Shown: positions 26,216 to 30,332 of the stretch, one piece after another
Layout: every line of letters starts with the position of its first letter
Numbering within the stretch: position 1 is the stretch's first letter
Assembly (NCBI RefSeq): GCF_014645795.1
Contig: NZ_BMMK01000005.1
Span: 1-64,000 of the forward strand
DNA length: 64,000 nt
From: Longimycelium tulufanense
Lineage (GTDB): Bacteria > Actinomycetota > Actinomycetes > Mycobacteriales > Pseudonocardiaceae
Reading direction: 5' to 3'
Program-made: the position numbers and the translations under genes
Notes under the pieces: model-generated
Told to the model about the DNA's origin: nothing
Databases searched by the model: none
The model's input: only the letters and a program-made list of their open reading frames with translations

Positions 26216-28411
26216 TCAGCGGTGTGCGAGCAGGACAGCCACGTGCCGGCGCGGGACGAGCAGCATCAGGCCGGCGAGGGCGAGCATCCCCCCGTGCAGC
26301 AGCTGGGTGACCACGGCCGGGTTCGGCAGCAGGAGCGGGGGCAGGCTCGCCAGCGCGCCGAGCAGCCAGGGCAGCGGCCGCCCGGTGATCCCGGCCCGGG
26401 CCGCCCGCACCAGGTAGACGCCCAGCAGCAGGTGGAGCAGGTTCTGCATGGGGTCGACGTCGAGAAACCACACGGTGCGGGCCTGCGGGCCGGCGGCGAA
26501 TCCGGTGGCCACGAAGCCGAGCAGGCCCAGCGCCGCGAACCCCACGCCGAGCGCGGCGGCGAGCCGCCCGTGCGCGGACTCCACGCGGGACCCGGCCCGG
26601 ACCGGCAGCTCGGTGTGCTCCAGCCGGCGGAACACGAACACCAGCACGGCGACCAGGGCCAGCAACGCGGCCAGCCATCCGGCTCCCGGTACCGGCCAGG
26701 GCACCTCCACGCCCAGCACGGCGAGCAGCCGGACGGCCACCAGCACCAGCGCGATGTGCCAGAGGAACAACGTCACCGGTGTCGCGCCCAGCCGGCCCAG
26801 CAGCCGCAGCGGCCGACGCCGCGCCAGCCACCGGGCCGCGCGGCCACGCCACAGCAACACGAAGGGGATCTGCCACGCCGCGAGCGCCAGGCCGCAGACC
26901 GCCAGTGGGTTGAGCCCCGACGGTGATCCCGACTCACCACCGAGGGTGCGGGGGTAGGCGCCGGTGGCGACGAGCACGGCCAGGGCGGCGAGCCCGGAGC
27001 ACGCCACCAGGGCCAGCGTGCGTCGGTTCAGCCCGGCCAGCCGCCCGTCCGCGTGACAGAACCCCAGTTGTTGCACCAGTAGGCCCACGACCAGCACGTT
27101 GGGGTAGCCGATCAGCGCGTTGTCGGTGGCCTGCCGGACCAGGTCGAGGCTCAGGGCGAGAGCGGCCAGCATCGTGGGCACCGCCCAGGCGAACCGGTCG
27201 TGCAGCCACGCCGCGACCGGGCTCGCCGCGGCGACCAGGAGGTAGACGCCCAGGTACCACAGTGGTCGCGCCACCAGCCAGCCGAGCCCGTCCAGCCGGG
27301 CGCCGGCGTCGAGCATGCCCAGCCCCAGCGGCAGCATCAGCCAGGCGAGCACGAAGGCGACCACCGGCCGCAACAGCCGGCCCACCCGCTCGCAGAGGAA
27401 CTCGACGTACCCGCCACCGCGCTCGCGCACCGCCCGCCACACCGCGAGGTTGGCGCGGCCACCGGCGAAGAAGAACAACGGCAGCACCTGCAGCACCCAG
27501 ATGGTGATCCACAGGCCCGGCTGCGGTGCCAGCCCCTCCCCGCCCCAGCCGAGGGCGACGACCAGCGGCATCCCGACCAGCGCGAGCAGGATGCTGGCCA
27601 GCGGTAGGAAGTGCTCCACCCGGTTCGTGCCGTGGCCGACGGCCGGGGTGGCGGGCGCGGGCCGGGGCGCGCGGAACCGGCCCGGGCGGCGCGCCAGCAT
27701 CAGGCAGGCGATGACGGCCAGGCCGGCCGTCCAGGAGGCCACCGGCTCGTAGCTGGGTGGGCCGTACCGCTGCCGCCAGGAGTTGAACGTCAGGCCAGCC
27801 GAGTAGGTGTTGGCGAGCGCGTGGCAGGCCACCACGTCGTGCCCGCGCTGGGTGGCGCAGCGGGCGTGCATGTCGGCCGCGAGCTGGTCGTCGATCCCGC
27901 GCCGCGCCTCCGGGCCCAGTGGGTGGCCCTTGCGCTCGGCATACCGCAGTACGTCGTAGCCGAAGTCGTGGGCCTTGCAGCCGGCATCGAAGTCGTAGGC
28001 GGTGGCGCCGCCGGGCGCCGAGCAGTCACCGCGCGGATGCAACGCGCGCAGCCTGCCGTCCGGGAACCGGACCATGATCGGCTCGTAGCCGAACTGCTGG
28101 GCGAAGTCGGCGGGCAGATCGGCCACCGGGTCGCGGTCCACACTCGGGTGCGCCAGCGCCGCGGCCACCCGGGCGGCGCCGGCCACCGACGGGTCGACCG
28201 GTCCGTTGCCGGGGTCGGTCGGCCGAGAGAGCAGGAGTCCGCAGAGGAAGACCACCGCGACCACCGCGACGGCACGCACGGCCAGTGGGAGCTGGGGTAG
28301 CCGCCAGGGCAGCAGGGCGGTGAGCCGGCGCGGGCCGGAGAGGACAGGCCGGGTGGGCTCGCCGGCACGGTCGCTGGCCCTGGTGAGGGTCGTGCCGTCG
28401 GGGGGATGCAC
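26216..28411 (-). CDS. phospholipase A2 domain fused to a membrane acyltransferase-3 domain
   Basis: 731-aa membrane protein. After one N-terminal membrane segment (43-62) comes an extracytoplasmic region with the prokaryotic phospholipase A2 site GCKAHDFGYDVLRYAE (C145, catalytic H148 and D149) plus Cys at 130, 185 and 196 that could form disulfides. From about 225 to the end there are roughly 10-12 membrane segments. The part from about 262 (EHFLPLASILLALVGMPLV, then GGRANLAVWRAV) matches acyltransferase family 3. Such a fusion could remove an acyl chain from a phospholipid and re-attach an acyl group elsewhere; that is inference. The start is the first codon of the frame; upstream 253 bases are non-coding. 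Confidence 0.8.
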   Translation of the reverse strand: MHPPDGTTLTRASDRAGEPTRPVLSGPRRLTALLPWRLPQLPLAVRAVAVVAVVFLCGLLLSRPTDPGNGPVDPSVAGAARVAAALAHPSVDRDPVADLPADFAQQFGYEPIMVRFPDGRLRALHPRGDCSAPGGATAYDFDAGCKAHDFGYDVLRYAERKGHPLGPEARRGIDDQLAADMHARCATQRGHDVVACHALANTYSAGLTFNSWRQRYGPPSYEPVASWTAGLAVIACLMLARRPGRFRAPRPAPATPAVGHGTNRVEHFLPLASILLALVGMPLVVALGWGGEGLAPQPGLWITIWVLQVLPLFFFAGGRANLAVWRAVRERGGGYVEFLCERVGRLLRPVVAFVLAWLMLPLGLGMLDAGARLDGLGWLVARPLWYLGVYLLVAAASPVAAWLHDRFAWAVPTMLAALALSLDLVRQATDNALIGYPNVLVVGLLVQQLGFCHADGRLAGLNRRTLALVACSGLAALAVLVATGAYPRTLGGESGSPSGLNPLAVCGLALAAWQIPFVLLWRGRAARWLARRRPLRLLGRLGATPVTLFLWHIALVLVAVRLLAVLGVEVPWPVPGAGWLAALLALVAVLVFVFRRLEHTELPVRAGSRVESAHGRLAAALGVGFAALGLLGFVATGFAAGPQARTVWFLDVDPMQNLLHLLLGVYLVRAARAGITGRPLPWLLGALASLPPLLLPNPAVVTQLLHGGMLALAGLMLLVPRRHVAVLLAHR

Positions 28412-28664: not shown

Positions 28665-29072
28665 GTGGGCGGCGTGATCATCTACGAGCCGGAGCCCGGC
28701 TCCCCGCTGCAGGACGTGCCCTGGGTCGTCACGTTCCGCTCCTGGGACGACAGTTGGGACCCGTTCATCTGCGGGCCGTACGAGCGGGCGCACGCCATCG
28801 CGCTGGCCGAGGCGGTCGCCGTGGACTCCGAGGACGTGCTGGCCGACGTCGAGCCACTGCTACCGGCGCTGGCCCCCGACGACGTGCTCGCCGACATCGC
28901 CGAGCTGCGCGCGGCGGCCGAGGCCGAGACCACCGGGCCGAACGGGGAGCTGACCGAGCCGGAGCCGGAGGACCTGGTGCCCACCGAGACGATCGTGCCC
29001 ACGGCCGAGGAGGTGCGGGCCGGGATGGCCCGGGTGGTGCACCGCCTGGTGTCGGGCAACGGCAACGGCTGA
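28665..29072 (+). CDS. small acidic hypothetical protein
   Basis: 135-aa acidic protein (rich in Glu, Asp and Pro) with no recognised domain. It has an N-terminal globular-looking part (VIIYEPEPGSPLQDVPWVVTFRSWDDSWDPFICG) and a helical Glu/Ala tail. GTG at 28665 has AGGAGG 7 bases upstream. It is the first gene of a rightward run with the RafH-like and DUF1876 genes, so a stress-related role is possible, but no function can be assigned. Confidence 0.6.
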   Translation: MGGVIIYEPEPGSPLQDVPWVVTFRSWDDSWDPFICGPYERAHAIALAEAVAVDSEDVLADVEPLLPALAPDDVLADIAELRAAAEAETTGPNGELTEPEPEDLVPTETIVPTAEEVRAGMARVVHRLVSGNGNG

Positions 29073-29272: not shown

Positions 29273-30022
29273 ATGACCGGGTCAGCCGCGTCGGTGATGC
29301 CCAGGGTCCGGGTCCAGACCGGCGGTCACGTGTCGTCCCGGGCGGCGGAGTACGCCAGGGAGCGGGTGCTCGCACTCAGCCGGGACTGTCCCGGCCCGGT
29401 GCCCTACGCCCGGGTCCGGCTCAGCCGGTCGGCCGATCCCGCCGAACCGGCCCTCGCCCAGGTCAACCTCGACGTCGCCGGCACCGGGGTCCGGGCCCAG
29501 GCGGCCGCACCCACCTTCACCGAGGCCGTCGACCTGGTGCACGAGCGGCTCCGGGAGCGGCTGAGCAACCTCGCCCGGATCGCCCGGATCGGCCGGATCC
29601 GGCCGGCCGAGCCGCTCGCGTCGGCACGCAACCCGGAGCTGCCGGCGGAGGAGCCCCGGGTGGTGCGGCACAAGACCTACGCGCCGGAGCGGCTGGCCCC
29701 GGAGGAGGCCGCCTTCGACATGGAGCTGCTGGACTACGACTTCTTCCTCTTCCGGGACGCCACCACCGACCGCGACGCGGTGGTGTTCCGGGACCCGGCC
29801 GGCCTACCGCGGCTGATCCGGATCCGGCCAGACCGTGACGTACCCGCCCCGTTCCCGGTCGTGGGGGCCAGCGCGCCCCGGCTGACCACGGCCGAGGCGG
29901 TGGAGCGACTGGCGGCCACCGGGGCGCGGTTCGTGTTCTTCGTCGACGCGGCCAGTGGGCGGGGACACGTGGTGTACCGCCGCTACGACGGCCGGTACGG
30001 CCTGATCAGCCCGGCCCGGTGA
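29273..30022 (+). CDS. RafH/HPF-type ribosome hibernation factor
   Basis: 249-aa ribosome-associated protein. The N-terminal half (8-110) matches the HPF/RaiA fold (VRVQTGGHVSSRAAEYARERV, then TFTEAVDLVHERLRERL). The C-terminal half is a duplicated dimerisation module. Copy one is around 130-185 (VVRHKTYAPERLAPEEAAFD, DYDFFLFRD) and copy two around 195-248 (RLTTAEAVERLAATGARFVF, then VVYRRYDGRYGLISPA). Mycobacterial RafH, a hypoxia-induced hibernation factor, is the nearest described type. ATG at 29273 follows GGGAGG. The DUF1876 gene follows 40 bases later in probable operon. Confidence 0.85.
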   Translation: MTGSAASVMPRVRVQTGGHVSSRAAEYARERVLALSRDCPGPVPYARVRLSRSADPAEPALAQVNLDVAGTGVRAQAAAPTFTEAVDLVHERLRERLSNLARIARIGRIRPAEPLASARNPELPAEEPRVVRHKTYAPERLAPEEAAFDMELLDYDFFLFRDATTDRDAVVFRDPAGLPRLIRIRPDRDVPAPFPVVGASAPRLTTAEAVERLAATGARFVFFVDAASGRGHVVYRRYDGRYGLISPAR

Positions 30023-30062: not shown

Positions 30063-30332
30063 ATGCCCGCCAAGATGTGGAACGTCCAGATCGAGATCAC
30101 CGAGGTGGACCGGCTGACCAAGGCGGAGGCCCGGCTGCTCGGCAAGGACTCCGAGGCCCTGGTCGGCCAGGGCACGGCGCGGTGCAATCCCAGCGACGAG
30201 AACGTACCGTCCATCGGCGATGAGCTGGCGAGCGCGCGCGCCCTGTCCGACCTGTCCCACCAACTGTTGCACGCGGCGGCCATGGATATTGAGTCGCACA
30301 CCCACCAGCGGGTGCAGCGGCTCAGCGTCTGA
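30063..30332 (+). CDS. DUF1876 family protein (Rv1738-like)
   Basis: 89-aa protein with the DUF1876 pattern WNVQIEITE, KAEARL, VGQGTARCNPSDENVPSIGD and ELASARALSDLSHQLLHAA. The mycobacterial member Rv1738 is induced by hypoxia and nitric oxide and resembles hibernation-promoting factors in structure; that is prior knowledge. Being 40 bases downstream of an HPF-type gene supports a joint role in translation arrest. The ribosome-binding site GAGGAGG precedes ATG 30063. Confidence 0.9.
   Translation: MPAKMWNVQIEITEVDRLTKAEARLLGKDSEALVGQGTARCNPSDENVPSIGDELASARALSDLSHQLLHAAAMDIESHTHQRVQRLSV

Follow-up and report, generated by a model that had tools for sequence, protein, structure and literature searches.

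In the bacterial AT3 enzymes commonly known to carry a fused outer domain, this domain is an SGNH hydrolase. The AT3-SGNH O-acyltransferases OafA, OafB and OatA combine an AT3 membrane domain with an extracytoplasmic hydrolase-fold domain in one chain, with an extra transmembrane (TM) helix for topology. The AT3/TmAT superfamily (PF01757) has as its hallmarks the motifs DxxRx10H in TMH1, FxxxxG in TMH2, RxxR in TMH3 and SxxxY in TMH9 (PMC12423673). An extra domain N-terminal to AT3 is likewise found in the animal NRF-AT3 proteins (nose resistant to fluoxetine, Drop Dead; PMC12423673), which are eukaryotic and carry an NRF domain rather than a phospholipase A2 (PLA2). The protein described here shares with the AT3-SGNH enzymes the combination of AT3, hydrolase-fold domain and extra TM helix in one chain. 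However, its partner domain has a PLA2 fold and is N-terminal, its C-terminus is a DUF4383 domain with no SGNH domain there, and the AT3 motif DxxRx10H is lost in its family. The parts belong to known families; what is new is a PLA2 in the place of SGNH and the loss of AT3 chemistry in this branch. The first-pass annotation knew of no characterised enzyme with this layout, and no description of a PLA2-AT3 protein, of PF09056 architectures or of the two-component system linked to them was found in the open-licence literature.

The gene for this protein occupies positions 26216..28411 on the minus strand of the window, the whole 64,000-nucleotide stretch of Longimycelium tulufanense DNA that was analysed. 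It is a single ORF of 731 aa with a GTG start and has the best codon-position coding score within its own interval; the gene caller is a simple codon-position scorer, and gene starts in the neighbour tables are approximate. Both domains named in the first-pass annotation match above their curated Pfam cut-offs, namely prokaryotic phospholipase A2 (PF09056; aa 132–205, E=3.4e-10, 40.9 bits against a cut-off of 29.4) and Acyl_transf_3 (PF01757; aa 300–592, E=1.6e-11, 44.3 bits against 31), and its description of one chain with PLA2 and AT3 is upheld. A third domain that it had not reported, DUF4383 (PF14325; aa ~617–688, 26348..26563, minus strand), was detected over cut-off (E=1.4e-7) only when the C-terminus of the fusion was scanned alone, being absent from the full-length Pfam scan. 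An NCBIfam scan of the fusion gave only a sub-threshold potassium-channel match. Among 297 genomes of the window's family, a homologue search found matches in 197, many of which cover nearly the whole fusion in one open frame at ~36–65% identity; by reading of the match table, full-length fusion homologues occur in roughly half of the 297. A full-length PLA2-AT3 fusion is also present in a different class (genome G324, locus L110), though this assembly is fragmented into 960 contigs and its taxonomic placement is to be taken cautiously. The first-pass annotation had raised the concern that a frameshift fused two genes. The same parts do exist as separate overlapping genes in another family, but because single full-length ORFs recur in many genomes of the window's family and in the unrelated class of L110, joining by frameshift or mis-assembly is ruled out for practical purposes. 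An apparent fusion in genome G626 (L139/L160) was rejected, as there is no PLA2 reading frame upstream, and a search of genome contigs for related loci by short-motif patterns found none, the patterns being too specific.

The PLA2 module (aa 71–223, 27743..28201, minus strand), delimited by Pfam, conservation, AF2 and Foldseek, has in common with the prokaryotic PLA2s of Streptomyces violaceoruber and Tuber borchii the HMM match, the fold, a His-Asp dyad, a third Asp and two disulfide Cys pairs. It matches 4aup in phmmer (E=2.3e-6), and a Foldseek search with this part of the AF2 model returned 4aup, 1faz, 7ygk and 8k1w with probabilities of 0.95–1.00 (1.00 for the first three), at weak E-values of 0.1–0.9. 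C130, C145, H148, D149, Y152, D174, C185 and C196 are invariant in 57/57 full-length homologues, so that the site residues originally proposed (C145, H148, D149) had been correctly named; the catalytic dyad H148-D149 lies at 27965..27970 (minus strand). The module differs from the same described enzymes in being tethered by two TM helices, in being coupled or fused to membrane acyl enzymes, in forming a separate deep clade and in two further sequence features. One is an extra motif, NSWRQRYGxP, which in the window reads NSWRQRYGPP (aa 210–219, 27755..27784, minus strand) and stands directly before the second TM helix. Its residues N210, S211, W212, Q214 and R215 are present in all 57 homologues; the signature occurs in fused and paired forms, is altered in forms associated with Abhydrolase_9, and is absent from the pair of secreted PLA2s that the window's own genome encodes, from which the window type separates as a deep clade (support 100/98). 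The other is a substitution at the position of Asp43, the Ca2+-binding Asp of the S. violaceoruber enzyme, two residues before the first Cys. Glycine (Gly128) occupies this position in 57/57 homologues and in all aligned paired and f2 forms. Judged by this residue, the metal site of the window PLA2 is not canonical, and the domain may not depend on Ca2+, or may not be a lipase.

The module is predicted to be anchored by a first TM helix (aa 43–62, 28226..28285, minus strand; family-averaged hydropathy peak 2.18, helix 42–58 in the AF2 model), and family-averaged hydropathy places a second helix (aa 226–241, 27689..27736, minus strand) where the chain leads into the AT3 domain. The first-pass annotation had called the PLA2 site extracytoplasmic. 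The site itself is real, and we infer its location outside the cytoplasmic membrane, between these two helices, from the first TM helix, the basic N-terminus, the Arg-rich segment after the second helix, the conserved Cys pairs and the family hydropathy.

The AT3-derived membrane domain (aa 263–598, 26618..27625, minus strand) was delimited by the Pfam match together with alignment to an intact AT3 paralogue and relatives. The PF01757 match in the window protein begins at profile position 38, and so without TMH1. Alignments show that the TMH1 motif (aa 267–281, 27569..27613, minus strand) is degenerate, with Asp replaced by His267, the acyl-CoA-binding Arg by Pro270 and the catalytic His by Met281. 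No member of the family has His at this last position (0/57), which is instead Gln (28), Glu (22), Asp (3), Leu (2), Met (1) or Thr (1). When 60 AT3 domains were aligned, the complete Asp, Arg and His set of DxxRx10H was seen in 32/32 AT3-only domains, 11/11 PLA2-paired domains and the one f21 fusion (L110), such that 43/43 unfused relatives compared keep the motif. In the window's family, by contrast, 16/16 fused domains lack the His. The fused f1 domains fall on one side of a branch with SH-aLRT 98; the trees are unrooted within the set, so that the order in which fused and unfused states arose is inferred. In contrast to TMH1, other superfamily features are kept, including the over-cut-off match, FxxxxG of TMH2 (F313/G318), PLW, other fold residues and RxxR of TMH3 (R342 and R345, 27377..27388, minus strand), although 50/57 members of the family have Trp in place of the second Arg. 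SxxxY of TMH9 is not kept (P545, F549); its Tyr is present in 56/57 family members, and many AT3-only relatives also have Phe. The AF2 model of the domain (pLDDT 86, pTM 0.87), examined for the predicted TmAT 10-helix fold, gave no significant or usable Foldseek match in the PDB. F313, G318, R342, W385, Y390 and P398 are retained in all 60 aligned domains, and the domain is therefore still under selection. The AT3 domain of the window's family is thus conserved yet appears to have lost its known chemistry, and that of the window is probably a non-catalytic scaffold. The loss of His does not rule out altered chemistry, given that HGSNAT has Asn at the same place (PMC12423673).

These substitutions bear directly on the proposal of the first-pass annotation that cleavage and re-acylation in one protein would make a built-in lipid-remodelling or acyl-transfer machine. 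In such a bifunctional enzyme, PLA2 would cleave a phospholipid and AT3 would re-acylate with acyl-CoA. The layout behind this proposal holds, in that both domains are present, and the complete AT3 motif survives in the related L110 fusion and in the gene pairs of f87. However, the window AT3 has none of the TMH1 Asp, Arg and His, and the corresponding R14A and H25A mutations abolish OafA, with 0.07% and 0.33% activity retained (PMC7448272). As the window AT3 is probably non-catalytic, cleavage and re-acylation within this protein is unlikely; it may still apply to relatives whose AT3 is intact, namely the L110 fusion and the f87 pairs.

In another actinobacterial family, f87, a gene of 200–290 aa encoding TM-PLA2-TM is followed by an AT3 gene of its own, whose product has the full DxxRx10H motif. 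The two genes share a 4-nt junction (NTGA) in 11/11 of these pairs, where the AT3 frame has a start codon that overlaps the PLA2 stop codon, and at L123 the AT3 domain match starts exactly at the overlap; L228 and L229 have the same junction, bringing the total to 13/13 PLA2-AT3 pairs with a 4-nt overlap. Short gene overlaps of this kind are a usual signature of translational coupling. Independently of the fusion, the overlap is thus evidence that the two parts are functionally linked. The partner is not always AT3. The f2 loci have, next after the PLA2 gene and on its strand, a gene for a membrane alpha/beta-hydrolase, identified as PF10081/PF15420 in the two that were scanned, with a 4-nt overlap in 3/4 loci. 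The PLA2 gene overlaps an Abhydrolase_9 gene by 4 nt in L107, L109 and L224, and L109 has a second PLA2 gene downstream. In f103, PLA2 and Abhydrolase_9 are joined in a single chain (L222, 6332–8497) whose PLA2 falls slightly under the Pfam cut-off yet keeps CxxHDxGYDLLRYA. Three f87 loci (L225–L227) retain the PLA2 and the two-component system, but their AT3 is truncated or could not be found, which marks the PLA2 as the core part. From the Abhydrolase_9 partners of f2 and f103 and these three loci, it follows that the PLA2 stays constant and that its membrane acyl-enzyme partner varies. A window-kind PLA2 also occurs at the C-terminus of a 377-aa protein with a long N-terminal region of unknown kind in the divergent genome G619 (L223, 4089–5222).

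PLA2s use no covalent acyl-enzyme, in contrast to the serine of SGNH hydrolases. This matters for another reading, an acyl relay like that of AT3-SGNH proteins, in which AT3 would carry acyl groups through the membrane for the PLA2-fold domain to hand on to an acceptor outside. The final transfer is performed by the outer domain in AT3-SGNH proteins (PMC7448272), the PLA2 gene overlaps an intact AT3 gene, and mammalian PLA2s have been implicated in transacylation (PMC5485470). Against this, a PLA2 would have to act without the acyl-enzyme of SGNH, and some loci have Abhydrolase_9 instead of the AT3 partner or have lost this partner. Such a relay would fit the paired forms and the f21 form best and the window protein less well; overall it is unlikely.

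The module has a recurrent regulatory neighbourhood. A HisKA_3 histidine kinase (HK) and a NarL-type response regulator (RR) flank it in 16/16 f87 loci (in one of which the contig ends before the regulator), and the same HK+RR type stands beside it in 4/4 f2 loci, in the single loci of f21 and f103 (1/1 each) and in 4/35 f1 loci. The linked RRs group together with SH-aLRT 99, and their clade also holds an RR of the window's own genome, L169 (G000:C13), which is the best own-genome match for 23/24 linked RRs among the best 30 of 42 LuxR-type matches. The two-component system on this contig is the own-genome orthologue of the module-linked HK+RR. It belongs to a same-strand run of HK, RR, Abhydrolase_8 and AT3 genes (L195, G000:C13, 6291–10619) that has an intact AT3 motif and lies apart from the PLA2-AT3 fusion. 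Another AT3 near an HK+RR, in L115, was left out of the module because the RR there is not closest to L169. On a further reading, the PLA2-fold domain would be no lipase but would bind lipids or peptides as a sensor or regulator, serving either wall enzymes or the linked two-component system. The strict co-localisation with one HK-RR pair in several families, the invariant Gly in place of the Ca2+-ligand Asp and the extra invariant motif would suit such a role, but the His-Asp dyad, D174 and both cysteine pairs are invariant and the neighbours are themselves acyl enzymes (AT3, Abhydrolase_8/9), which leaves this reading unlikely.

Elsewhere in the window's family, in 26/35 f1 loci (L042–L054, L056–L068), the next gene downstream of the fusion, in the same orientation, encodes an LCP (LytR-CpsA-Psr) protein, and work on wall glycopolymers could thus be an alternative role. 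A GGDEF membrane protein and an HTH regulator are often encoded near the fusion-LCP pair in these loci. At the window locus, no two-component system (NarL-type HK+RR), LCP gene or partner gene adjoins the fusion. Beside it are a 135-aa ORF at 28665–29072 without a Pfam match, which the two nearest relatives (L034, L035) also have next to their fusion genes, and genes for an S30AE/hibernation-factor-like protein (29273–30022) and an Rv2632c-like small protein (30063–30332), whose order with the fusion is conserved in the same two relatives.

The reading that best fits the window protein is that of a fused branch, degenerate in its AT3 part, of a module of PLA2 and membrane acyl enzyme. With moderate confidence, we favour a membrane-anchored PLA2 with its catalytic domain outside, fused to an AT3-derived domain of putatively 10 helices, which would serve as a scaffold and not act on acyl-CoA, and to the helical DUF4383 domain. 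The PLA2 would strip acyl chains from outer-leaflet lipids, or pass them to an acceptor other than water. The AT3-derived part would perform no acyl-CoA transfer, and may place the PLA2 in the membrane or bind a lipid or acyl acceptor. The fusion would descend from a PLA2 + AT3 module that is encoded in other actinobacterial families by overlapping genes beside an orthologous NarL-type two-component system. The module would most likely remodel cell-envelope acyl groups upon an envelope or membrane signal. A broader reading, for which the chances seem evenly balanced, is that of a two-component-linked actinobacterial envelope module with a tethered PLA2 core and an exchangeable AT3 or Abhydrolase_9 partner, occurring as 4-nt-overlapping pairs and as separate fusions, with AT3 as a pseudoenzyme scaffold in the window's family. 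No actinobacterial system for on-demand acyl remodelling outside the membrane was found described in the open-licence literature. The presence of a PLA2 in the outer-domain role across several actinobacterial families, linked to one two-component system, suggests that acyl groups of phospholipids or envelope lipids are remodelled on demand outside the membrane in these organisms, and with its intact AT3 partners, lost partners and fused partners without catalytic residues, the family constitutes a natural experiment.
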